Source of the DNA: Streptococcus suis 10581
GTDB lineage: Bacteria > Bacillota > Bacilli > Lactobacillales > Streptococcaceae
Assembly (NCBI GenBank): GCA_000440235.1
Contig: ALKQ01000093.1
Location: forward strand, 47,907-111,906
Direction: 5' to 3'
DNA: 64,000 nucleotides
Positions 1 to 59,086 of the stretch are shown one piece after another; within the stretch, counting starts at the first letter, position 1; every line of letters begins with the position of its first letter. Made by a program: the position numbers and the translations under genes. Below the pieces are notes generated by a model. The model had not been told where the DNA came from, searched no databases, and was given only the letters and a program-made list of their open reading frames with translations.

Positions 1-568
1 CATCATGCATAACCAACAATTTAGCAATTTCCACCATGGGAACTCGCTTTTGCATACTGATGGTTCGAATATGCTTAAAGGCTGCTGATTCTGATAGATG
101 ATCACGGGACATCAATAAGCCTTTTGCTTTTTCAATGATGATACGGTCATTGATTTTCTTCGTCAATTTAGCCATTTCACTGGTCAAGTGCTGAAATTGT
201 CTACCTCTTGCTATACATACTTCCACCATAGGAATCAATGATTTAGCATCAAGAGGTTTTACTAAGTAACCACTAACACCATATCTTTTGGCTTTCTCGA
301 TATACTGTTCATCACTTTGGGTAGTTAACAAGAGAACACTATAGGCCAGATTATCATCCAATATTTTTTTACAGGCTGTCAAACCATCTAATAGAGGTAG
401 CTGGATAGACATCACAACTAAATCCGAACGGTATTTTTGGCTTAATTCTATTGCTTCAAAGCCATCACTAGCCTCTGCCACAACTTCGAAATCAGCCTTT
501 TCCAATAGTTCTCTAACTTCACGTCTAACCATTGGATCCTTGTCTGCTATTAGTATTCTACCTTTCAT
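1..568 (-). CDS. eutV: EutV-like ANTAR response regulator/antiterminator (3' end cut by window)
   Basis: The visible 189 residues have an N-terminal receiver domain (about 1-120) and a C-terminal coiled-coil plus ANTAR RNA-binding domain (about 130-189, with IIIEKAKGLLM and the final PMVEIAKLLVM helix). EutV-type proteins bind dual-hairpin RNA motifs and prevent termination in ethanolamine operons. It follows eutS by 19 bases. The receiver is odd: the usual phospho-acceptor Asp in the DLVxMD motif is Ser54 (DLVVMSIQLP), and the acidic pair near the N terminus reads ADKDP rather than VDDEP. The Lys after the fourth strand (LVKPLD) is kept. Only the last few residues appear to be missing. The family assignment is firm; whether phosphorylation still controls it is doubtful. 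Confidence 0.88.
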   Translation of the reverse strand, partial: MKGRILIADKDPMVRREVRELLEKADFEVVAEASDGFEAIELSQKYRSDLVVMSIQLPLLDGLTACKKILDDNLAYSVLLLTTQSDEQYIEKAKRYGVSGYLVKPLDAKSLIPMVEVCIARGRQFQHLTSEMAKLTKKINDRIIIEKAKGLLMSRDHLSESAAFKHIRTISMQKRVPMVEIAKLLVMHD

Positions 569-2183: not shown

Positions 2184-2248
2184 TAAAAATAAGCCATATG
2201 AAAACCAGACTAGAACTCTCCATTAAGTCATAGTCGTTTCATATAGCT
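2184..2248 (-). terminator. Intrinsic terminator in the eutG leader (attenuator)
   Basis: On the minus strand an arm at 2231-2248 pairs with 2192-2212 (AGCTATATGAAA with TTTCATATGGCT, plus CGACTA with TAGTC) and is followed by a U-rich tail (2184-2190). The start of the stem is the same GCT that closes the second ANTAR hairpin, so the two structures exclude each other. Confidence 0.85.
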
Positions 2249-2279
2249 ACATTGCTTATTGATTAGTACGCCTTTGTAC
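2245..2279 (-). promoter_or_regulatory. Dual ANTAR hairpins (EutV binding site) in the eutG leader
   Basis: First hairpin GTAC-AAAGGC-GTAC (2266-2279) and second hairpin AGC-AATGTA-GCT (2245-2256) each have a six-base loop with A at position 1 and G at position 4. This is the established recognition rule for ANTAR antiterminators. They sit just downstream of the predicted transcription start and overlap the terminator, as in known eut leaders. Confidence 0.88.
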
Positions 2280-2288
2280 CACGAAAAA

Positions 2289-2573: not shown

Positions 2574-2602
2574 TTGTCAAACTGGCGAAGATAAGTTATA
2601 AT
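2574..2602 (+). promoter_or_regulatory. Promoter of the riboswitch sRNA
   Basis: TTGTCA (2574-2579) and TATAAT (2597-2602) with a 17-base spacer on the plus strand, pointing to a start near 2609. No protein gene follows on this strand, so the product is a free-standing RNA. Confidence 0.82.
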
Positions 2603-2624
2603 AATGATGCTAGGAATTGATTTT

Positions 2625-2725
2625 AGTACTTTTGAAAACATGGAAGTTTGGTGCAAATCCAACGCGGTCCCGCCACTGTGATAAGCTTTGCTTTAAGTCA
2701 GGTCTTTGGTTTCAAATTTTAGTAG
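2625..2725 (+). promoter_or_regulatory. Cobalamin riboswitch aptamer
   Basis: Conserved blocks in order: GGTGCAAATCC (2650-2660), CCCGCCACTGTGA (2669-2681), and the B12-box-like AGTCAGGTC (2696-2704). The closing arms TTTGAAAAC (2631-2639) and GGTTTCAAA (2708-2716) are complementary apart from one bulge. It faces away from both flanking protein genes and leads only into the ANTAR hairpins. Confidence 0.9.
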
Positions 2726-2762
2726 ATCTCACGCCTCGATGTAAGGTGTGATGTCAGTTTGG

Positions 2763-2786
2763 ATAGCGCATCTACTGCGGTATTTT
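2763..2786 (+). terminator. Candidate B12-dependent early terminator of the sRNA
   Basis: An ATAGCGCA/TGCGGTAT hairpin with one mismatch (2763-2783) runs into a short U stretch (2780-2785). Its loop region ATCTACT (2769-2775) is the exact complement of AGTAGAT (2721-2727) just after the aptamer, giving an alternative pairing that could act as the switch. The U stretch is weak, so this is a proposal. Confidence 0.45.
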
Positions 2787-2944
2787 CCATTATTGGCTCT
2801 ACGTGAAGTACCTTTCATTTTCTAAAGGTAGAAAAACTACCTTACTGCAACGGAGCAGGGCCGATAATCGGGAAAGCCACAGTTAATCAATGATGCTTAA
2901 CAGACTATACAAAGATGTATAAATGCTTTCTTAACATAAACTAC

Positions 2945-2979
2945 AAACCACCCTTGATTTTTCAAAGGTGGTTTTTTCT
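2945..2979 (+). terminator. Terminator of the sRNA, possibly bidirectional
   Basis: AAACCACC-C-TTGA pairs with TCAA-A-GGTGGTTT with one mismatch, followed by six T on the plus strand. On the minus strand it lies just past the stop of the last gene of the cob operon but has a poorer U tail there. Confidence 0.88.
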
Positions 2980-15083: not shown

Positions 15084-15749
15084 CTAAGGATCAAAGCGAA
15101 ATTCTAACATATCATTGATCTGTCGATTTGCTCTCATCAATCTAGTAAATAATTGACTAGCCAACAAACCCATAGTTTGATAGCTCTGCTTGACTGTTCC
15201 AAAACCAAATTTCAAATCAAGTGTATCTCGCATGACAAGAAATTCTTCCAAAAACATGAAGATAAAGCGATACATAAAGACAATTACTTCCAACAATTCA
15301 TTTGGAATGCGAAAACTTCTTAACAAGTCAATCAACTGTCTAAATGGTACAGTGAGAACAAAAAAGTAGGTAGACATCAAACAAGCATAACTTCTCACAA
15401 ACACAGCAATGGTTTGATCTAGACTAGCACGAGTGATAACTGCATAGCCCTTCCACAAAGGTAAGGCTAGAATAAGATCCTTTGATGGAGATTCTTGAAA
15501 ACTCACGGCCATGGTTACTAAACTGATAAAAACAAAAGGCAAGGTTAACAATAGCCATTTTGCATATGTTTTCCAATGTAACTTTGCTAGGTAACAAGTC
15601 ACTGGGAATAAGCCCACTATAATAGCCCATTGCAGGCTAGGAATTCCTGTAAAAGAAATTCCTAGCAACAATAGGTAAATCCCTAATTTTACTTTGGGAG
15701 ATAGGCCTACCAATCGATTCTGGTAGGCGTATTGATCAATGATTAACAT
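15084..15749 (-). CDS. cbiQ: Cobalt ECF transporter transmembrane protein
   Basis: About 221 residues with several hydrophobic segments. It is the coupling membrane subunit between CbiM/CbiN and CbiO. The C-terminal part has the two coupling-helix-like stretches around LLRSFRIPNELLEVIVFMYRF and the final FTRLMRANRQINDMLEFRFDP. I start at the ATG at 15749 (MLIIDQYAYQNRL), preceded by GGGAAAG; it overlaps cbiN by 14 bases. A longer version would run through most of cbiN. Confidence 0.92.
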   Translation of the reverse strand: MLIIDQYAYQNRLVGLSPKVKLGIYLLLLGISFTGIPSLQWAIIVGLFPVTCYLAKLHWKTYAKWLLLTLPFVFISLVTMAVSFQESPSKDLILALPLWKGYAVITRASLDQTIAVFVRSYACLMSTYFFVLTVPFRQLIDLLRSFRIPNELLEVIVFMYRFIFMFLEEFLVMRDTLDLKFGFGTVKQSYQTMGLLASQLFTRLMRANRQINDMLEFRFDP

Positions 15750-16017
15750 ATTTCTTTCCCTTGTGATAACCCAATACATAGGTAATAATACCCACACCAA
15801 TGCTACCTTGTAGAGTGAAGAGTAAGCTCTCAATCTCACCACTAGCTGGTTCATAAATTGAAGCGAACCATGGTTCATAATCTGGATTAACCTCTGTAAT
15901 GGCTACTTCAGCACCGCCATCCGAACCCCCAAACTCGGCGTCTTTAGGCGCTAAGAAGAAGGCACCAACAGCAATCAGAACACAAGTCAACAATAAAAGA
16001 ATATTTTGCTTTTTCAT
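15736..16017 (-). CDS. cbiN: Cobalt transport protein CbiN
   Basis: 93 residues with one membrane helix at each end and an extracellular loop containing FGGSDGGAEVAI and VNPDYEPWFASIYEPASGEIE, the family hallmark. CbiN is a small auxiliary subunit that helps load cobalt into CbiM. Start ATG at 16017, one base after the cbiM stop. Confidence 0.93.
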   Translation of the reverse strand: MKKQNILLLLTCVLIAVGAFFLAPKDAEFGGSDGGAEVAITEVNPDYEPWFASIYEPASGEIESLLFTLQGSIGVGIITYVLGYHKGKKYVNH

Positions 16018-16018
16018 C

Positions 16019-16741
16019 TTAGAACACTCCCACTTCTTCTTTTTTAGCATTGGCTACAACTAAGTTATACAGGACTACTGACAAAAGACCTTCAATGATG
16101 GCAATTGGAATTTGTGTAACCATGAAGACCCCCATAAATTTCATTGCAGCACCAAAGACACCTGCTTGTGCATCTGGGAAAGCCAATGATAATTGTAGCG
16201 AAGTAGTTAAATAAGTTGCTAAATCAGCTATAAAAGCACAGAGGAAAATAGCCACGCGCTGATTGACTTTCATAGACAGAGCTAATTTATAAACAAAGTA
16301 ACCAACAAATGGGCCTACGACTGCCATTGAAAATCCATTTGCTCCCAAGGTCGTCAAACCACCATGGGCCAAGAAGAGAGCTTGGAAGAGCAAACAGATC
16401 GTTCCTAAAACAACCATGACACTCGGACCAAACATAGCTGTACCAAAGCCGACACCTGTTGGATGAGATGTTGAACCTGTTACAGATGGAATTTTTAGGG
16501 CTGAAAGGATAAAGACAAAGGCACCTGATAGAGCCAATCCCACCTTGCTTTCAGGATTTTTCTGGACCGACTTTTTCAATTGGAACAAACCATACAGGAA
16601 AAATGGTGCAAATATTCCAAACCAGAGCAAGGCATGAGCAGGAGGTAAATAGCCTTCCATAATGTGCATGGCTGCTACTGGTGTAGCTGTAACTAGGGTC
16701 AGCAAAGCAACAAGTGCTAAAAGATTCAATAACTTTTTCAT
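16019..16741 (-). CDS. cbiM: Cobalt-binding substrate-specific protein CbiM
   Basis: 240 residues: an N-terminal signal-like segment ending in [13 protein letters not shown], so that the metal-binding N-terminus (Met-His-x-Met) becomes exposed after cleavage, followed by about six membrane helices. [15 protein letters not shown], a second conserved His region, is intact. It is the S-component of the cobalt ECF importer, first of cbiMNQO. Strong AGGAG lies before the ATG. Confidence 0.95.
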
Positions 16742-25322: not shown

Positions 25323-26024
25323 TTACTTACCTTGACAAAAACTATTTCCTGAAAGCGAGAAGAGTTGCCCTTCTCTATCCTCAGATTTTAGCTGATAAAG
25401 AATAGCATTTACGATTGCTGCTGCAATGGTACTGCCACCCTTTCTACCAAGTGCTGCTATAGCCGGCAAGGAACTTTCATGGAGTTGCAATTTTGACTCT
25501 GCAGCTCCAACAAATCCAACTGGAACACCGATGACTGGAACAGACTCCATTTGACCTGCCTCGACCATTTCCAAGACCTTAAATATAGACGTTGGAGCAT
25601 TCCCAAAAACAAAGAGTTTCGGCCCTTCAACTTTTGCCGCGTGCTCTACTGCAGCCATTGATCGCGTAATTCCCTTTTCCTTGGCTTCTTTAAAAATCTC
25701 TGGTTCATTCACCAAGCAACGATAAGCGACACCAAGCCTATCCAATAATTTTTTATTGAAACCTCCCAAAACCATAGTCGTATCAGTGAAAATGGTTCCC
25801 TTATTTTTCAAGACCTTCACTATTTCCTCAATGGCATGATTGGAAAACTGTATATTATACAGGTAATCAAAATCAGCACTGGTAAAGACAACTCGCTTTA
25901 AAACTGCCTCCTGGTAAGGGTCTGTGAACACAACCCCAGAGTGTTGCTTAGTGATGATTTCCTGAATTTTTTGGTAACTTGCTGCTTCAATTTTATGGGC
26001 ATCTGTTATATAGACCATAGTCAT
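25323..26024 (-). CDS. CbiC paralogue lacking the catalytic histidine
   Basis: 233 residues clearly of the precorrin-8X methylmutase family: FDYLYNIQFS, GITRSMAAVEHAAK, KLFVFGNAPTS, VIGVPVGFVGAAESK and ALGRKGGSTIAAAIVNA. The catalytic His of the family, expected in KRxIHTSxDFD, is Phe here (LKRVVFTSADFD); I checked the codon (TTT). The rest of the substrate site looks conserved. The adjacent copy at 26028 keeps the His. This copy may be a binding or chaperone subunit, a product-holding protein, or a decaying duplicate. Confidence 0.88.
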   Translation of the reverse strand: MTMVYITDAHKIEAASYQKIQEIITKQHSGVVFTDPYQEAVLKRVVFTSADFDYLYNIQFSNHAIEEIVKVLKNKGTIFTDTTMVLGGFNKKLLDRLGVAYRCLVNEPEIFKEAKEKGITRSMAAVEHAAKVEGPKLFVFGNAPTSIFKVLEMVEAGQMESVPVIGVPVGFVGAAESKLQLHESSLPAIAALGRKGGSTIAAAIVNAILYQLKSEDREGQLFSLSGNSFCQGK

Positions 26025-26027
26025 CTC

Positions 26028-26711
26028 CTATTTACTTGTCGGTGTTGAGTAACGAATATAATCACCAGTCAAGACTTCTTTTAACTGGTAGATGATGGCA
26101 TTTATTATAGCCACCACAATGGTACTACCACCCTTTCGACCAAGGGTCGCAATGGCAGGAAGAGGTGACGCAAGCAAGTCTGACTTAGATTCCTCAACAT
26201 TGATAAAGCCAACTGGAACACCAATAACAGCATCAACTTCCATCTGCCCTGCCTCAACCAATTCTAATAAGTAGGATAGGGCTGTTGGAGCACCGCCAAA
26301 GGCAAAAACTTTTTGACCTGGAATTTTTGCTGCCACTTCAACAGCAGCCATGGCCCGTGTGATACCTTTTTCTTTAGCCAGTAGAGCAACATCTTCATCG
26401 TTGATCAAGCAGGTATAATTCACCCCCATTTGATCTAAAACGCGTTTGTTTATCCCATTAAGTGAAATACTGGAATCCAGCACCAAGGTCCCCTTGTTTT
26501 TCAATACTTCTACAATCTTTTGATTGACATCATGAGTAAATTTTAAAGTATAGAGATAATCAAAATCGCCTGAAGTGTGAATTGCTCGCTTGATGATAGA
26601 CTCCTCCATCTCCGTTTGAAAACGATAATCTGGATGCTCTTCATCAATTATGGATTGGATAATCTTAAAACTTGTTTCCTCAATAGAGGATGGATTTTGA
26701 ATATAGGTCAT
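26028..26711 (-). CDS. cbiC: Cobalt-precorrin-8 methylmutase
   Basis: 227 residues. The catalytic histidine is present in IKRAIHTSGDFDYL (near residue 45), followed by GITRAMAAVEVAAK, KVFAFGGAPTALS, VIGVPVGFINVEESK and LGRKGGSTIVVAIINA. It moves the methyl group from C11 to C12 to give cobyrinate. It lies three bases upstream of a paralogue without the His, and nine bases after cbiB. Confidence 0.95.
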   Translation of the reverse strand: MTYIQNPSSIEETSFKIIQSIIDEEHPDYRFQTEMEESIIKRAIHTSGDFDYLYTLKFTHDVNQKIVEVLKNKGTLVLDSSISLNGINKRVLDQMGVNYTCLINDEDVALLAKEKGITRAMAAVEVAAKIPGQKVFAFGGAPTALSYLLELVEAGQMEVDAVIGVPVGFINVEESKSDLLASPLPAIATLGRKGGSTIVVAIINAIIYQLKEVLTGDYIRYSTPTSK

Positions 26712-27671: not shown

Positions 27672-29027
27672 CTATCCCTCACAAATACTTTGAAGCCAAT
27701 TTTCCAACAAAGCCTGATTTTGATAAAAATGAACATGCAGATAGCTAGCAAAGGTTTTACCAGTTTGATAGCCACCTGTCCAGCTAGAAACAACTTGGCC
27801 ATCTCGAACTTTTTCTAGTTGCAAAACGGTCGGTTCATTAGTCTGAAATACAGAATGGTGAAACTCATGACCCCTGACAACCGTATCCTTTGGACCAAAC
27901 AAGCTACTAACCTGAGTCTTAGCTTGACAATAACCAAAACTTTTTAGCCGGTCTGTCATAATACTGACACCATCAAATATCCCTACCATGTCATAAGAAC
28001 CCTCTCCAGTCTGTAGTTCCTTGCCAAGATACATCAGGCCACCACATTCTGCATAAATAGGTTTATCTTCTTGATGGGCTTGCTGAACAGATTGGCGGAA
28101 GGAAACATTTTCCATCAATTCTTTTGCATAGACCTCTGGAAAGCCTCCTCCAAAATAGTAAGCATCTGCTTCAGGTAATTCTTTGTCATTAAGGGGACTA
28201 AAGGGAATCAAGTCCACCCCATATTCCCTTAATAAATCCAGATTATCCTCATAGTAGAAATGAAAGGCATCATCAAGAGCATAGCCAATTTTTAGAGGGA
28301 ATTGTTTTGGAATGCTGAATGGATTTGACGGTTCTTCACCTGCTATATCTACCTTCTCAAGCAAGCGATCTAAGTCAATATGGTCTTGAGCCAATTGACC
28401 TAAGATAGAAAAATGTTTCTCCAAGTTTTCCATTTCAACATCTGGAACTAGCCCCAAATGGCGTGAGGGCAATTCTACCTGAATATTTTTAGGAAAGTAG
28501 CCTAAAACTTCCACATCCGTATAGCGTTCAATAGCGCCTTTTATCAATTCATAATGAGTTTGTGAAGCAACTCGATTGACAATCACTCCAGCAATTGTCA
28601 AATCCTGATCAAAAGTTGAGAAACCATGAACCATAGCCGCTGCCGATGTTGAAGTTGCTTTCCCATCGATAATCAAGACAACAGGGATATCTAATTTCTT
28701 AGCAATCGCAGCCGATGATGCACAGTCTTTATCCGTACCAAGTCCATCAAATAGACCCATTACCCCTTCAACAAGGGCAATGTCAGCATCTTTATGCCAC
28801 TTTCTAAACGACCAGTCCAAGGCAGCCTTATCAGGAATCATAAAGCTGTCTAAGTTCCGAGAAACTCTCTTCGTTATTCGACTATGATAAGCGGTATCAA
28901 TATAGTCTGGACCGACCTTGTAAGGTTGTACACGTAAGCCTTTCTCAGTCAAGGCTTTTAAAATACCTAGAGTGACAGTTGTTTTTCCAACCCCACTAGA
29001 AACACCTGCTAACATAAATTGTTTCAT
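27672..29027 (-). CDS. cbiA: Cobyrinate a,c-diamide synthase
   Basis: 451 residues. The ATPase half starts MKQFMLAGVSSGVGKTTVT and has PYKVGPDYIDTAYH and VEGVMGLFDGLG; the glutaminase half has PIYAECGGLMYLG with the catalytic Cys and a final SYLHVHF His. It amidates the a and c carboxylates and is the first gene of the long cob operon. I use the ATG at 29027, six bases after AAAAGGTGG. Upstream frame positions lie inside the leader terminator. Expression should depend on the ANTAR attenuator at 29050-29125. Confidence 0.96.
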   Translation of the reverse strand: MKQFMLAGVSSGVGKTTVTLGILKALTEKGLRVQPYKVGPDYIDTAYHSRITKRVSRNLDSFMIPDKAALDWSFRKWHKDADIALVEGVMGLFDGLGTDKDCASSAAIAKKLDIPVVLIIDGKATSTSAAAMVHGFSTFDQDLTIAGVIVNRVASQTHYELIKGAIERYTDVEVLGYFPKNIQVELPSRHLGLVPDVEMENLEKHFSILGQLAQDHIDLDRLLEKVDIAGEEPSNPFSIPKQFPLKIGYALDDAFHFYYEDNLDLLREYGVDLIPFSPLNDKELPEADAYYFGGGFPEVYAKELMENVSFRQSVQQAHQEDKPIYAECGGLMYLGKELQTGEGSYDMVGIFDGVSIMTDRLKSFGYCQAKTQVSSLFGPKDTVVRGHEFHHSVFQTNEPTVLQLEKVRDGQVVSSWTGGYQTGKTFASYLHVHFYQNQALLENWLQSICEG

Positions 29028-29049: not shown

Positions 29050-29088
29050 TAAAAAGGCCACAAAAAATATCACTATTTTTTGTAGCCC
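29050..29088 (-). terminator. Attenuator terminator in the cbiA leader
   Basis: Minus-strand GGCTACAAAAAATA pairs with TATTTTTTGTGGCC around a GTGA loop, followed by TTTTTATG (29051-29055). The 5' arm contains the GCT of the second ANTAR hairpin, so antitermination and termination exclude each other. Confidence 0.9.
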
Positions 29089-29125
29089 CGTTGCTCACTT
29101 CAATTGATTTAACACGCCGTTGTGT
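29084..29125 (-). promoter_or_regulatory. Dual ANTAR hairpins before cbiA
   Basis: Hairpin one ACAC-AACGGC-GTGT (29112-29125) and hairpin two AGC-AACGGG-GCT (29084-29095) are 16 bases apart. Both six-base loops have A1 and G4. Loop sequences are nearly the same as the AACGGA loop in the riboswitch RNA at 2849-2854. Confidence 0.88.
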
Positions 29126-29147
29126 CAAATGATTTTCTTATAAAATC

Positions 29148-29176
29148 ATTCTACACTTTATAGAGCATTATGTCAA
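29148..29176 (-). promoter_or_regulatory. Promoter of the cob operon (cbiA)
   Basis: Minus-strand TTGACA (29171-29176) and TAGAAT (29148-29153), 17 bases apart. The transcript would begin near 29141, shortly before the ANTAR hairpins. No other convincing promoter was seen down to about 3,000, so this may drive a transcript of about 26 kb. Confidence 0.85.
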
Positions 29177-29207
29177 TATGTAAATTAAAACGGTTTCAAA
29201 AATGCTC

Positions 29208-29816
29208 TTATCTTCCTTCTTCCCTAGCCTTAGCCCAACGCTCCACATCAGCTTTTGTTATATTATGAAAGACTTTTGCACCTCTTTCATAAGCAATATC
29301 TGGCTGCTGGTGGGTAAAATTGATCACACGCGCCAAGGCAAAGAAATAGTCCGAAAGACGGTTTACAAATACCAAGACATCCTTATTGATTTCCGTTGTC
29401 CACATAGTGCCTACAATATGGCGCTCCGCACGTCTAGCAATAGTGCGTGCTATGTGGATCATAGCGGCAATTTCATGTCCTCCTGGTAAGATAAAAACTT
29501 CGAGCGCTGGTGGGATATCCGCATAGGTATCAATGCGCTCCTCAATCCAATCAACCATGGTTTTGTCAACCTTATAAGGATAAACACCGTGAGGCGTAGA
29601 TAAATCCGAACCACAGTCAAAAAGGTAATGCTGGAGTTGCAACAATTCATCCTTTAAGGCATCTGCTGGGTCCATTTTAGTAACGATATAACCAATCCAA
29701 GAATTTAATTCATCAATGGTACCATAGGCATTAACACGCTCCGCATCTTTTGCGACACTCTGACCACCAACCAGTTTGGTCAAGCCTTTGTCACCTGTTT
29801 TTGTATATAACTGCAT
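29208..29816 (-). CDS. PduO-type ATP:cob(I)alamin adenosyltransferase, copy 2
   Basis: 202 residues with the canonical ATP motif LYTKTGDKGLTKLVGG, VNAYGTIDELNSWIG, FDCGSDLSTP, ARTIARRAERHIVG and NRLSDYFFALARVINF. It adenosylates Co(I) corrinoids. It is last in the eutP-cobD-pduX-cobT operon and 32 bases before the cbiA promoter. The ATG at 29816 follows AAAGTGAG. This copy looks more canonical than the one at 12180; one could serve de novo synthesis and the other salvage or ethanolamine lyase. Confidence 0.92.
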   Translation of the reverse strand: MQLYTKTGDKGLTKLVGGQSVAKDAERVNAYGTIDELNSWIGYIVTKMDPADALKDELLQLQHYLFDCGSDLSTPHGVYPYKVDKTMVDWIEERIDTYADIPPALEVFILPGGHEIAAMIHIARTIARRAERHIVGTMWTTEINKDVLVFVNRLSDYFFALARVINFTHQQPDIAYERGAKVFHNITKADVERWAKAREEGR

Positions 29817-29831
29817 TTGTATTCTCACTTT

Positions 29832-30896
29832 CTATTTTGATTGACGAATGTCGATGTAATCATCCCTACTCAATTTTCCCTCAGAAAATGTAGGCATTTC
29901 TTCAATAGTATAAACTGCATTGCTCATTAAGAAGAAGGCTAGAGGACAACCCGATCCCTCACCCAATCTCATATCCATCAAGAGCATGGGATCTAGTCCC
30001 AAGTGCTCACAAACCAACCGATAGGCAGGCTCTGTGGAAAGGTGGGAAGCAAAGCAGTAATCTAAAACATGACTATTTAATTTACTGGCAATCAGCAAGC
30101 CTGTAATGGAGATTAGACCATCCACTACACAGGGAAGTTGATGATGAGCACAGGCCAAGTAAGTCCCTACCATACCCAGCATATCTAATCCACCAACTTT
30201 TGCAGCGATGTCCAGAACATCCTTGTAGGGAGCATGGCGAGCAACCGCTGAAGCAATCACTTGTGTTTTATGGGATTTCATCCCTTCTGTCAAGCCAGCC
30301 CCGTAACCAGTCACTTGACTGGCTTCAAGATTTAAAATAGCACTGATTACTGCTGCCGAGGTTGTCGTATTGCCAATTCCCATCTCTCCTGTACCAAAAA
30401 GTTTATAGCCTTTCTGAATACAGGATAGGGTTTCCCTGTAGCCAACCATTATGGCTTCAACAGCTTGCTCTCTAGTCAAGGCTGGTTCCCTGAGAATATT
30501 CCCCGTCCCTCTCCTGACCTTACAAGCTTGGTTGGTATGAACATCTTTCATGCACCCTATATCAACTACCCTGACATCTGAGCCTACATGCCTTGAAATG
30601 GCGCATAAACCTGTTTTTCCCTCTAACATATTGCGAGCAACGATAAAGGTCGTTTCCTGTGGATTGGCAGAAATACCTTCGGCAACGACACCATTATCAG
30701 CCACATAAACCATTACAATCTGTTTAGATATGTCTATAGCTCCTTGAAACATAGCATACAAACGGGCATATATTGTTTCCATTTTACCCAGAGCACCTAA
30801 GGGCTTGCCTAATTGATCACAAATCTTCTTCCCCTTCTCAATTGCATGTTTATCTAGAGGCTTGATCTCCCTCAATATCTCATGTAAGTCTACCAC
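29832..30896 (-). CDS. cobT: Nicotinate-nucleotide-dimethylbenzimidazole phosphoribosyltransferase
   Basis: 354 residues. It makes alpha-ribazole phosphate from a lower-ligand base and nicotinate mononucleotide. Near the N terminus GKPLGALGKMETI, then VVAEGISANPQET, GEMGIGNTTTSAAVISAI and the catalytic Glu region MRLGEGSGCPLAF near the end. Length is normal. No gene for making dimethylbenzimidazole is present in this window, so the base it uses is open. Confidence 0.96.
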   Translation of the reverse strand: MVDLHEILREIKPLDKHAIEKGKKICDQLGKPLGALGKMETIYARLYAMFQGAIDISKQIVMVYVADNGVVAEGISANPQETTFIVARNMLEGKTGLCAISRHVGSDVRVVDIGCMKDVHTNQACKVRRGTGNILREPALTREQAVEAIMVGYRETLSCIQKGYKLFGTGEMGIGNTTTSAAVISAILNLEASQVTGYGAGLTEGMKSHKTQVIASAVARHAPYKDVLDIAAKVGGLDMLGMVGTYLACAHHQLPCVVDGLISITGLLIASKLNSHVLDYCFASHLSTEPAYRLVCEHLGLDPMLLMDMRLGEGSGCPLAFFLMSNAVYTIEEMPTFSEGKLSRDDYIDIRQSK

Positions 30897-30897
30897 C

Positions 30898-31764
30898 TCA
30901 ACCTCCTTTCACCCTTTTAACACCTTCGAAACAAATCCTTGAAAGATAGCGTTGGTCATAATACTTACCAATTTCTCCCTTAGAAAAATTTGCTTCGATA
31001 ACTGATATCAATGGTAATTGACTTTTAGTCATCAATATTCCCACTACCGTTCCGCTGTGAGCGACATTAACTCCAAGTAACCCTATTTGATTCACTAGGG
31101 TTATTATGTCCGCCAAATAAGGCTTTGGTAGCCGAGTGTTGTTTAATAAGGCACTTGCTGTCGCAATCTGACCCAAAAGAAGTTCATTTTTTGACTGACA
31201 TGCCTGCTGAAACATTTCCAATAACCCTTCTGATGCTTGGACTGGATAAGTAGGACATTCGGTCATTCTAGCTAGCTCAACTGTCCACTCAGTCTTTCTC
31301 GGTTCTAGAATATAGACATAAAGTTCTGGTTTCCAATATGTCTGAAACACTATCTGACCGCTCAAGGGATTGATGACCGTCCAGTCAGCAAAGGCAATCG
31401 AATCTGTTGGCTCAATCTGACAACAGAACTTGGTCACTTCTTCGGCAGTCAAATGCCTATTTTGAACATAGGCTAAGGCTTGTAGGCTTGCCAGCATATC
31501 TGCCGTGCTACTGGACATTCCTTTACCGATTGGAAGACTGGACTTCTTTTCTAGCTTCCATCCATCCTCTATCGGATCAAGATAATCCAAGACCTTGACA
31601 ACCTTTTCTCCTATTGCAAATTCCGTTTCTTCCTCCTCTCTGATAAGCCTTGCATAGGACTTGCGATTGATACCGTAGGTCAGCAAAAATTCTTGACCAT
31701 CCTTAACACCCTGAAACAATTCCCCACATGAACCTGGACAGGAAAACCATTTGTTCCTAGACAT
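30898..31764 (-). CDS. pduX: L-threonine kinase (GHMP family)
   Basis: About 288 residues. CPGSCGELFQG at the N terminus and the GHMP phosphate loop LPIGKGMSSSTADML (near residue 80) identify PduX, which makes L-threonine O-3-phosphate for CobD. The C-terminal GHMP motif VNVAHSGTVVGILM is also present. It overlaps the end of cobD. Start is ATG at 31764 or 31770; both follow GGAAAG, and MSRNKWF at 31764 looks more like relatives. Confidence 0.93.
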   Translation of the reverse strand: MSRNKWFSCPGSCGELFQGVKDGQEFLLTYGINRKSYARLIREEEETEFAIGEKVVKVLDYLDPIEDGWKLEKKSSLPIGKGMSSSTADMLASLQALAYVQNRHLTAEEVTKFCCQIEPTDSIAFADWTVINPLSGQIVFQTYWKPELYVYILEPRKTEWTVELARMTECPTYPVQASEGLLEMFQQACQSKNELLLGQIATASALLNNTRLPKPYLADIITLVNQIGLLGVNVAHSGTVVGILMTKSQLPLISVIEANFSKGEIGKYYDQRYLSRICFEGVKRVKGG

Positions 31765-32851
31765 GACCATCACACTTTCCTAACACAGATCTAAAAGCCT
31801 CAATCAAACGACAATTTTCCTCTCTTGACCGAATGGCTACTCGATAATGGTTGTCATCTAGATGGTGGTAATTATGGCAGGAACGAATAAATATTTTTTC
31901 TTGTATTAAAAGCTCTCTCAGACTTTCATTTCCCTCGTATCCAAAGAAAATGTAATTGACAGTCGGTGGCAAGACTTGCAAATCGGGCAAAGCAGTCAAT
32001 TCTTTATAAAGGAATTCCTGCTCACTCTTGAGCCACTCTTCTGTAGCATGGTGATAATCACTATCCTTGAGAATAACTGGCACCAAAGCATCTGCCAAAG
32101 CATTGATGGTCCAAGGTGGTCGCATTTCATCAATAGCAGTAATCAATTCTGTATTACTAGATAAGGCATAGCCCAACCTCAAGCCAGGAATAGCATAAAA
32201 TTTTGTCAAAGACCGAACAACAATGACATTTTGATAATCCTTCAAATGAGCCACCATGGAATAGGCATCATTGTCTAAAACAAAGTCCATAAAGGCTTCG
32301 TCAAGGACCAAATAAGCTCCTTTTTGCCTTAGAAATTCAGCTACCAGTAATAATGTAGCCGTTGGTACCAAGGTCCCTGTTGGGTTATTTGGATTACAAA
32401 TCAATACCAAATCTCCAGATGATAGTTTTTCCAAGTTAGGTAAGATGGATTCAAATGTCCAACTGTAATGAGGTCCTTCTAATACATGATATATAATATC
32501 TGAACCAACCTGCTTAAATGCTTTTTCATACTCCATAAATGTCGGACTTAAGAGCAGTATCTTCTTTGGCTTCACATACCTAGCCAATTCATAAAAGATT
32601 TCTACTGCACCGTTTGATAGAAGGATTTGCTGGGTCGGACAAGAATGGTATTCAGCCAAGGCTGCCTTGGACTGTGAGTAGGTCACATCAGGGTAGTGAA
32701 CTAAGCTATCTAAAGTTTCTATTATCTTTGATTTTACTTTTTCTGAAAGACCTAATGGATTGATATTGGCAGAAAAATCTAAGCAATCCTCTGGGCGAAA
32801 ACCAAAATCAGAGGCAAGCTGATTCATGTTTCCTCCATGTTCTACCTTCAT
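31757..32851 (-). CDS. cobD: Threonine-phosphate decarboxylase
   Basis: 364-residue PLP enzyme of the histidinol-phosphate aminotransferase-like fold. It starts MKVEHGGNMNQLASDFG and has DFSANINPLGL, LICNPNNPTGTL, LVLDEAFMDFV and the Schiff-base lysine in VVRSLTKFYAIPGLRLGY. It makes (R)-1-amino-2-propanol phosphate for CbiB. pduX follows directly, so threonine kinase and decarboxylase are translated together. Confidence 0.95.
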   Translation of the reverse strand: MKVEHGGNMNQLASDFGFRPEDCLDFSANINPLGLSEKVKSKIIETLDSLVHYPDVTYSQSKAALAEYHSCPTQQILLSNGAVEIFYELARYVKPKKILLLSPTFMEYEKAFKQVGSDIIYHVLEGPHYSWTFESILPNLEKLSSGDLVLICNPNNPTGTLVPTATLLLVAEFLRQKGAYLVLDEAFMDFVLDNDAYSMVAHLKDYQNVIVVRSLTKFYAIPGLRLGYALSSNTELITAIDEMRPPWTINALADALVPVILKDSDYHHATEEWLKSEQEFLYKELTALPDLQVLPPTVNYIFFGYEGNESLRELLIQEKIFIRSCHNYHHLDDNHYRVAIRSREENCRLIEAFRSVLGKCDGHV

Positions 32852-32860
32852 CCCATCACC

Positions 32861-33310
32861 TCAACTTTCCTTTGTCAAATAGTTTTGAATCGCTTCAATA
32901 CCTGTATTATCCTCTAAAGATACCTCAAAGATTTCCTTGGCACCTGCTGCACGTAATTGTGCTCTAGCTTTCTCAAGGCCGCTAGGGTCTGTTACTAAAT
33001 CAACCTTGGTGATAATGCCAATCACTGGTTTATTAAATAAAGATGAAAACCCCTGAGGAAATGTTTGCATAGTAGCGGTTGCTGAAGCTAGTAAGCCTAT
33101 CACTTCCGCCTCCGCAGCTGTTACAGATAAAGCATTGTAGTATCGCCTATGTTGTAAAAATTCACCAGGTGTATCAATGATAGAATCATAAAATTGGATA
33201 GCTTGTGTTTTAAAATAGGTGATATCAAGCCCCTTCAAACGTTGTGTCAGTGTCGTTTTCCCAACACCTACTGGACCTACAAACATAATTTTTTTTGATT
33301 CAAGTCCCAT
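32861..33310 (-). CDS. eutP: EutP/PduV small GTPase-like protein
   Basis: 149 residues with a Ras-like fold: P-loop FVGPVGVGKTTL (residues 10-21), IDTPGEFLQHR (G3 region) and IGIITKVDLV (NKxD equivalent is TKVD). EutP and PduV are linked to ethanolamine or propanediol microcompartments; EutP has also been reported as an acetate kinase. As in Enterococcus, eutP leads an operon with an ANTAR leader, but here the operon continues into cobalamin genes rather than other eut genes. Confidence 0.9.
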   Translation of the reverse strand: MGLESKKIMFVGPVGVGKTTLTQRLKGLDITYFKTQAIQFYDSIIDTPGEFLQHRRYYNALSVTAAEAEVIGLLASATATMQTFPQGFSSLFNKPVIGIITKVDLVTDPSGLEKARAQLRAAGAKEIFEVSLEDNTGIEAIQNYLTKES

Positions 33311-33374: not shown

Positions 33375-33444
33375 AAAAAGGCAAAGTTAGCCCGTTGTTC
33401 CAAAACTTCCGCTTCATTGCGAACAACAGGCCCCTTTGCCTTTT
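33375..33444 (-). terminator. Attenuator terminator in the eutP leader
   Basis: A long minus-strand hairpin: AAAGGCAAAG pairs with CTTTGCCTTT, and inside it GCCTGTTGTTC pairs with GAACAACGGGC. It is followed by TTTTTATTT (33375-33379 and on). Formation destroys both ANTAR hairpins that lie in its 5' arm and apex. Confidence 0.88.
33407..33441 (-). promoter_or_regulatory. Dual ANTAR hairpins before eutP
   Basis: Hairpin one AGGC-AAAGGG-GCCT (33428-33441) and hairpin two TTCGC-AATGAA-GCGGAA (33407-33423), only four bases apart, each with A1 and G4 in a six-base loop. Both overlap the terminator at 33375-33444. Confidence 0.85.
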
Positions 33445-33460
33445 ATATATTAACAAGTAT

Positions 33461-33489
33461 AGTATATACTATATTCAAGTCTTCGTCAA
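33461..33489 (-). promoter_or_regulatory. Promoter of the eutP-cobD-pduX-cobT-pduO operon
   Basis: Minus-strand TTGACG (33484-33489) and TATACT (33461-33466), 17 bases apart. It lies between the NUDIX gene stop and the first ANTAR hairpin. Confidence 0.82.
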
Positions 33490-34532: not shown

Positions 34533-34595
34533 CAATGTCATTAAGTTAACTAACCTATCACGTTTTGTGGTGGGTTAGTTAACTTAATGACATTG
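34533..34595. repeat. Perfect long inverted repeat (29-bp stem, 5-base loop)
   Basis: Left arm 34533-34555 and right arm 34573-34595 are exact reverse complements over 23 bases. The stem continues with six further pairs, two of them G-T, around a GTTTT loop. No T run follows on the minus strand, so it is not a classic terminator. The stop codon of the LPXTG gene lies in the right arm. It could be a mobile-element remnant, a processing site or a strong mRNA end. Confidence 0.85.
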
Positions 34596-35001
34596 CCGTC
34601 AACTCTTTCTTACCTTTTTTATCAAATCTAACAGCTAATAACAGGAGAGACACTCCACCCACCACCAATAGTCCGGTTTCTACAGAGCCAGTATTTGGCA
34701 AAACTTGAGACGTGCTTGTCGATGGAGTAGATGCTGTGCCAGTAGCTGGACGATAGATCAGGTAATAATTTGCATCCGTTTCCTGAGCTAAGCCAGGCAA
34801 GTCACGAATAATCAACTCCTTTTCTGCATCTGTCAATTCTTGCTCTGTCACATAGGAATAATTGATAGACTGAGCACTAGCTGACGGTGCTGCTGCGACC
34901 GATGACGCAAAAAACAAACTTGCTACAGCTGCCGAGACAAGTCCAATTGACAGTTTCCGAAAACCGAACCGCTGTCGTTTTTCACCAAAAATATTTTTCA
35001 T
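34579..35001 (-). CDS. Very small YSIRK-signal, LPXTG-anchored cell wall protein
   Basis: 140 residues. A signal peptide with a YSIRK-type motif (FGFRKLSIGLVSAAVAS), then a short middle stretch NYSYVTEQELTDAEKELI, a Thr/Ser-rich linker and the sortase signal LPNTG, a hydrophobic helix and a KKGKK charged tail. Only about 60 residues would remain outside, without an adhesin or enzyme domain. The middle stretch resembles the start of much larger streptococcal surface proteins, so this may be an internally deleted survivor. The stop codon lies within a 29-bp hairpin. Confidence 0.85.
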   Translation of the reverse strand: MKNIFGEKRQRFGFRKLSIGLVSAAVASLFFASSVAAAPSASAQSINYSYVTEQELTDAEKELIIRDLPGLAQETDANYYLIYRPATGTASTPSTSTSQVLPNTGSVETGLLVVGGVSLLLLAVRFDKKGKKELTAMSLS

Positions 35002-59016: not shown

Positions 59017-59086
59017 AGAACTATCTATTGTAAAAATACTTTTATGTCATCATAAAAGCTCAGTGTGTAAAAGGAGTTACTTTAAA

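Follow-up and report, generated by a model that had tools for sequence, protein, structure and literature searches.

A dual-hexaloop leader of the EutV type precedes the cobalamin biosynthesis genes of Streptococcus suis and other streptococci and appears to place them within the EutV regulon

Cobalamin biosynthesis (cob) operons are textbook targets of B12 riboswitches that act in cis and repress synthesis once B12 is abundant. The locus analyzed here, a 64,000-nt stretch of the Streptococcus suis 10581 genome (hereafter, the window), raises the question of how such an operon is controlled when its leader looks instead like the target of an ANTAR antiterminator. The presumed cob operon comprises 31 frames of at least 100 aa that occupy about 26 kb of the minus strand (2984–29027), and their spacing and common strand suggest a single transcript. 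These were assigned as cbiA, B, C, C', D, E, T, F, G, H, and J, a cobA/hemD-like gene, cbiK, L, M, N, Q, and O, cbiP, a PduO-type cobO, a sirC-like gene, hemA, C, D, B, and L, cobU, S, and C, an OYE-type gene, and a last unnamed frame, the name cbiN (15736–16050) being presumptive. An NCBIfam scan of 30 of the 31 frames returned a family match for 29, several of these scoring under the curated cut-off (including cbiK, cbiG, hemD, cobC, and the sirC-like and OYE frames), and nearly all matches pointed to B12 or uroporphyrinogen III synthesis or to cobalt uptake. Two adjacent cbiC-type genes for cobalt-precorrin-8 methylmutase (26028–26711 and 25323–26024, minus strand), both scoring above the family cut-off, form a tandem duplication.

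The minus strand upstream of the cbiA start (ATG at 29027) carries a promoter, TTGACA-17-TAGAAT (29148–29176), the TTGACA of which is present in 18/18 leaders aligned, followed by an ANTAR hairpin P1, TTTGACAC[AACGGC]GTGTTAAA, with hexaloop AACGGC (29108–29129), a second hairpin P2, GTGAGC[AACGGG]GCTAC, with hexaloop AACGGG (29082–29098), and an intrinsic terminator, GGGGCTACAAAAAATA..TATTTTTTGTGGCCTTTTT, with a U-run (29051–29089) that overlaps P2. A preliminary description of this DNA had listed a promoter, two A1/G4 hexaloop hairpins and an overlapping terminator before cbiA, and all of them were confirmed on the sequence and recovered in 38/38 Streptococcus cbiA loci examined. The 5' arm of the terminator takes in the 3' arm of P2, so that the P2 and terminator states are mutually exclusive. 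Only the three inner pairs of P2 (AGC/GCT) are robust, and measured to them the linker from P1 is 12 nt long in the window. This architecture resembles that of the Enterococcus faecalis EutV targets, namely the leaders of eutP, eutG, eutS, and eutA with linkers of 5–12 nt as described in PMC3369931, in its two hexaloop hairpins, the A1/G4 signature, the overlapping terminator, a linker within range and a single EutV-type protein; unlike those targets, the streptococcal cob leader heads B12 synthesis rather than ethanolamine catabolism, and its readthrough is a prediction. A weak cre-like site (catabolite repression) adjoins the promoter (29185–29198, minus strand). Cre-like sites by or over promoters were clear by eye at two other loci (L006, L010) and at S. 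sanguinis eutG, and weak in the window.

Predicted energies were −6.3, −2.1, and −18.9 kcal/mol for P1, P2, and the terminator, respectively. Folding of the stretch 29180–29020 yielded z = −4.39, with 0/200 shuffles as stable, although this stretch takes in promoter DNA and P1 is absent from its minimum-energy fold; P1 shows up once folding begins within the presumed transcript. A motif scan for two A1/G4 hexaloops with an overlapping terminator returned two sites in the 64-kb window, the cob leader and position 59024. The chance rate of this combination was 0.10 per 64 kb in 400 dinucleotide shuffles, and 0.005 per shuffled 64-kb window when P1 had at least 8 bp (a 30-shuffle run with any P1 gave 0.03), on which grounds chance occurrence of the cob leader hairpins was rejected. 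The site at 59024, with loops ATAGTT and AGTGAA, is absent from a stricter scan for C-closed dual hexaloops and was taken as a chance match.

Conservation is the stronger evidence for this leader and outweighs folding. The cbiA sample combined 18 of 147 Streptococcus genomes with 20 Streptococcus records from a set of 79 loci, itself drawn from the best 80 of 256; the resulting 38 loci correspond to 28 genomes, since 10 records duplicate genomes, and to 24 distinct leaders once identical fragments were removed. Across these, G4 was invariant in both loops (24/24 each), as was A1 of the P2 loop (24/24), while A1 of the P1 loop was kept in 21/24, the three exceptions reading GACGAT with G at position 1. 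Loop position 3 was C in 22/24 P1 and 23/24 P2 hexaloops, and the cob leader of S. danieliae displayed the loops AGCGTT and AAAGGT. Conservation of the two hexaloops in related genomes, on which the preliminary description had made its proposal depend, was thus borne out. Pairing was maintained in 98.3% of cells in the P1 stem, with one pair changed on both sides, and in 99.7% in the terminator; for the two together, 99.4% of cells were paired and 16 cells carried double changes versus 4.0 in shuffles, with 0/500 shuffles as high. Covariation was also seen between position 6 of the P2 loop and the base opposite it in the terminator (UA 15, GC 5, AU 4). Double changes were few in the P1 plus P2 structure. 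The three inner pairs of P2 are invariant and therefore uninformative either way, and its two outer pairs were unsupported, being unpaired in 4/24 and 10/24 leaders. The weakness of P2 (3 bp, −2.1 kcal/mol), and the fact that kinship alone can hand down conservation, would suit a plain attenuator or constitutive terminator in which the hexaloops are incidental. Against this stands the invariant loop G4 in 24 distinct leaders whose linkers and stems diverge, and we regard such an explanation as highly improbable. A model of the leader (R1) was built including the window's own cob leader, and its match at the window is by construction.

The usual cis-acting element was not detected here. Rfam revealed no cobalamin aptamer in the streptococcal cob leaders scanned, that is, those of the window and of three further loci (L086, L099, L104), and control by a B12 riboswitch within the leader itself was accordingly dropped as a candidate. 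A search of the whole genome with RF01482 and RF00174 returned a single place, 2615–2759 on the plus strand, with an Rfam match of 120.1 bits; RF00174 scored 31.1 bits at the same place, just below its cut-off of 31.5. The earlier statement that this operon is not under the usual B12 riboswitch stands in cis, at the cob leader, with the amendment that the locus has one in trans, in an antisense EutX-like RNA (2574–2977, plus strand). Outside Streptococcus, we scanned with Rfam 10 of the 59 cbiA loci obtained from the best 80 of 256, and eight of them contained a riboswitch before cbiA or a few kilobases upstream of it: directly 5' of the gene in Vagococcus fessus (L105), Ignavigranum (L109), and two Tepidibacter (L107, L108), and about 3.7–4.4 kb upstream in L106, L111, L112, and L114. 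Rfam detected none in Granulicatella (L102), and none in L110 within the 362 upstream bases covered there. When the upstream 200 bases were tested loosely for hexaloops, 57/59 non-Streptococcus loci were negative, whereas L106 and L156 contained loop pairs. In Granulicatella sp. WM01 (L102), a promoter-like stretch precedes cbiA with neither a riboswitch nor a hexaloop pair. The streptococcal leader occupies the position before cbiA of the cis cobalamin riboswitch attenuators (RF00174/RF01482) but lacks the aptamer, control having apparently moved to a protein and probably to an RNA acting in trans. Streptococci with a cob operon appear to have swapped the cis riboswitch for an antiterminator common to the B12-consuming ethanolamine genes.

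Further leaders of the same design support this view of a common antiterminator. The eutG leader (2185–2281, minus strand) presents a P1 loop AAAGGC (2264–2281), a P2 loop AATGTA (2244–2257) and an overlapping terminator (2185–2247). A second gene run on the minus strand (29208–33310) encodes eutP/pduV, cobD, a pduX-like kinase, cobT, and a PduO-type adenosyltransferase, where pduX is a presumptive name suggested by position and weak GHMP-kinase hits. Its leader (33375–33489, minus strand; E 0.54) contains a promoter-like stretch (33461–33489), the hexaloops AAAGGG (33428–33443) and AATGAA (33407–33423), and a terminator (33375–33444) that encloses both; it could be aligned in the window and four loci labeled S. 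suis, and not in a fifth (L101). A dual-hexaloop element with a terminator also lies between eutV and eutA, just left of the window (contig about 47817; L002 about 17818, minus strand). This eutA element was found in 15/16 EutW loci as well; in the relatives EutW lies upstream of it, whereas here the element fills the gap of EutW. The terminator-like hairpins that follow or enclose these elements had predicted energies of −22.1 (eutG), −36.3 (eutP), and −25.7 kcal/mol (eutA).

A scan for C-closed dual hexaloops over 81.9 contiguous kb returned six rows at five sites, which are the EutX-like RNA and the eutP, cbiA, eutG, and eutA leaders. Without a terminator, chance accounts for roughly one hit in every 82 kb (mean 1.06 in 300 shuffles, with at least six in 1/300), and 1.12 Mb of non-Streptococcus loci yielded 27; a hexaloop pair by itself therefore says little and has to be weighed together with its position and a terminator. 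A model built only from eutG leaders ranked three cob leaders (L099, L100, L098) top in 809 kb, with E values of 0.0022, 0.015, and 0.094. It found 3/20 Streptococcus cob leaders at E ≤10, with non-Streptococcus hits from E 0.6, and did not pick up the cob leader of the window at E ≤5. EutV is encoded at the left edge of the window (2–568, minus strand, running just past it) and is the sole ANTAR match in the genome. Among the 147 Streptococcus genomes, an EutV query matched 62, the matches that were not full-length covering the receiver only at 29–37% identity, and full-length EutV was present in 19, namely all 18 with cbiA and one more (G111). Exactly these 19 genomes had one RF01482 match each, under stricter filters that may lose weak matches. 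Both the co-occurrence of EutV in 18/18 cbiA genomes and the recurrence of the motif at eut leaders count further against incidental hexaloops. With dual hexaloops in front of eutG, eutA, and eutP as well, B12 synthesis appears to be part of the EutV regulon, as judged from these sequences, and EutV very probably acts on the cob leader. The preliminary proposal that an operon of about 26 kb for B12 synthesis is controlled by ANTAR antitermination is thereby supported on comparative grounds, the 31 same-strand frames being headed by an EutV-type attenuator. A single antiterminator for B12 synthesis and ethanolamine genes would couple the production of B12 to the expression of the genes that consume it. 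In the G111 genome (L038, L065, L085), EutV, EutW, and an AdoCbl riboswitch were found with no cbiA match.

The only detectable B12 riboswitch of the genome belongs to the EutX-like RNA, which lies in antisense orientation in the interval that separates the last cob gene from eutG. On the plus strand, a promoter-like stretch (2574–2602) and the AdoCbl riboswitch (2615–2759) are followed by a single hexaloop hairpin (2845–2858), dual hexaloop hairpins (2882–2901 and 2906–2921), reading GTTAATC[AATGAT]GCTTAAC and TATAC[AAAGAT]GTATA, and a terminator (2946–2977). A hexaloop pair 22–26 nt apart with G4 in both loops lies downstream of the riboswitch in 26/26 loci (19 genomes plus 7 named); in 4 of them one loop has G at position 1, and in all but a few species the first hairpin has a mismatch beside the closing pair. 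The extra single hexaloop was present in 24/26 loci, in the window as CTGC[AACGGA]GCAG within a long hairpin, which is a further likeness to EutX, since such a loop is mentioned for it in PMC8934654. A decoy made of TTTTCT[AAAGGT]AGAAAA and CTGC[AACGGA]GCAG had also been considered, and was dropped since the loop of the first hairpin varies across species. The streptococcal RNA shares with EutX/Rli55, as described in PMC5821096, an AdoCbl aptamer followed by EutV hexaloops that are untied to the terminator of a gene, and a reverse-oriented EutX has already been published for S. sanguinis (PMC5821096). It differs from EutX/Rli55 elsewhere in that the putative regulon here takes in the B12 synthesis operon itself. 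The 3' end of the aptamer in the window carries a hairpin and no strong U-run, so AdoCbl-dependent truncation is not evident from this sequence. The 3' ends of the EutX-like RNA and of the cob operon face each other (2943–2984), and cob readthrough would consequently be antisense to EutX.

We then considered how the antiterminator itself could receive signals. The kinase EutW was present in 16/19 EutV genomes, and a HisKA_2 kinase gave no match in 6/6 genomes of an S. suis-like clade (the window's, G064, G123, and strains 2219, 2187, and 614). This loss is confined to one clade and the six genomes are not independent. A tblastn search between eutV and eutA uncovered no convincing EutW remnant, the best match (E 0.041) lying on the opposite strand. 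When residues were aligned to the solved EutV structure 6wsh, position 54, at which E. faecalis EutV is reported to be phosphorylated (PMC8934654), was Ser in four of the clade genomes, including the window's, and Ala in two, and Asp10 of the acidic pocket was Lys in 5/6, including the window's, strain 614 being without D10K. Asp9 and Lys104 are retained in the clade, and both Asp10 and Asp54 are kept in 20/20 EutW-positive genomes (16 sampled genomes and 4 further). As read from its sequence, the clade protein is an aspartate-less receiver that is otherwise intact and probably phosphorylation-independent. Unlike E. faecalis EutV, it thus lacks the phospho-accepting Asp and belongs with a described class that is enriched with ANTAR outputs and in which Ser and Ala are common replacements (PMC4395418). 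D10K corresponds to CheY D13K, a change described as giving constitutive activity; its counterpart in EpsW, also D13K, was reported as not activating (PMC4671073). The window's EutV and that of EutW-positive streptococci keep Lys147 and Met172 but carry Ile in place of Lys143, a residue highlighted in the RNA-bound structure from E. faecalis (PMC8934654), and this difference at position 143 counts against an easy transfer from E. faecalis. The missing EutW and the replaced Asp54 together indicate that ethanolamine sensing via EutW is probably gone and that AdoCbl via EutX is the likely input left. The likeness to ethanolamine operons drawn by the preliminary description holds for the ANTAR-type leader, with the amendment that ethanolamine is probably no signal in this genome.

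Work on E. faecalis and Listeria (PMC3369931, PMC5821096) provides the EutV and EutX mechanisms from which a model for the cob operon can be put together. RNA polymerase would start at the sigma-A-type promoter and halt by default at the cob leader terminator, whereas binding of dimeric EutV to P1 and then to P2 would keep the 3' arm of P2 from the terminator and allow transcription into cbiA. The antisense RNA, with its riboswitch and decoy hexaloops, would set EutV availability: full-length EutX would hold EutV at low AdoCbl, and in the presence of AdoCbl EutX would be cut short and EutV freed. In most streptococci with this locus, EutV would have to be activated by EutW (ethanolamine) too, while in the S. 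suis-like clade AdoCbl via EutX would be the main input left to it. We consider this frame of antiterminator plus EutX, taken as a whole, quite probable. With the cob operon itself an EutV target, the published EutX logic would make B12 promote its own synthesis; of all steps in the model we are least sure of this sign of the response, on which our judgment is evenly balanced. If the EutX decoy gates the cob leader too, the usual riboswitch repression of cob genes would be inverted, with B12 favoring its own production.

A hierarchical arrangement in which EutV binds the cob leader more tightly than the eut leaders, and the cob leader escapes EutX, would give a different outcome, with no true positive feedback on cob. 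Little free EutV would then serve cob first, and the accumulating AdoCbl would remove EutX, with eut/pdu following. The cob loops indeed keep C at position 3, versus eutG (mostly AAAGNN/AATGNN) and EutX loops, and P1 of the window's cob leader is the most stable by prediction (−6.3 versus −4.4 for eutG, −4.6 for eutP, and −0.9 for EutX). However, G4 has been reported as the sole base-specific contact of EutV with RNA (PMC8934654), and we regard this hierarchy as rather unlikely. Returning to a cob leader gated by EutX, we offer only tentatively that the clade has been rewired to a one-input B12 circuit, where with the kinase gone and EutV phosphorylation-independent the riboswitch decoy RNA would be the sole gate and positive feedback could be bistable. 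Such a protein would resemble AmiR in its ANTAR output and in a receiver that is not phosphorylatable at Asp; AmiR is described as controlled by sequestration through the protein AmiC (PMC4395418, PMC3369936), whereas EutV would be held by RNA. In this respect the kinase-less clade offers a test set up by nature of whether a decoy RNA suffices to control an ANTAR protein.

The absence of a detectable EutW and the loss of the phospho-Asp could also mean that clade EutV is dead or permanently on, leaving the cob leader blind to signals and expression dominated by catabolite repression or by the promoter, to which the weak cre-like site next to the cob promoter would lend itself. The evolutionary record of the protein speaks against this. 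Both EutV domains are under purifying selection in the clade, with dN/dS of 0.10 versus strain 2187 and 0.05 versus strain 614 (dS saturated, 1.6 in the latter); phospho-competent relatives gave 0.01–0.025 in three pairs, which indicates a constraint in the clade that is strong but looser. The clade members inspected have likewise retained their cob hexaloops, EutX, and eutP element. A dead or always-on EutV is hence improbable to us, and the aspartate-less protein is likely to be active.

The novelty of the locus lies in a known RNA element and its regulator on a type of target that we did not find described, together with a kinase-less version of the system. No cob operon was named as an ANTAR target in the open literature searched, a scope outside which lie the supplementary tables of the ANTAR survey PMC3369931. 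As a minor observation, a 140-aa frame (34579–35001, minus strand) combines a YSIRK signal with an LPXTG-like end, similar to the termini of zinc metalloproteases, and is possibly a remnant.
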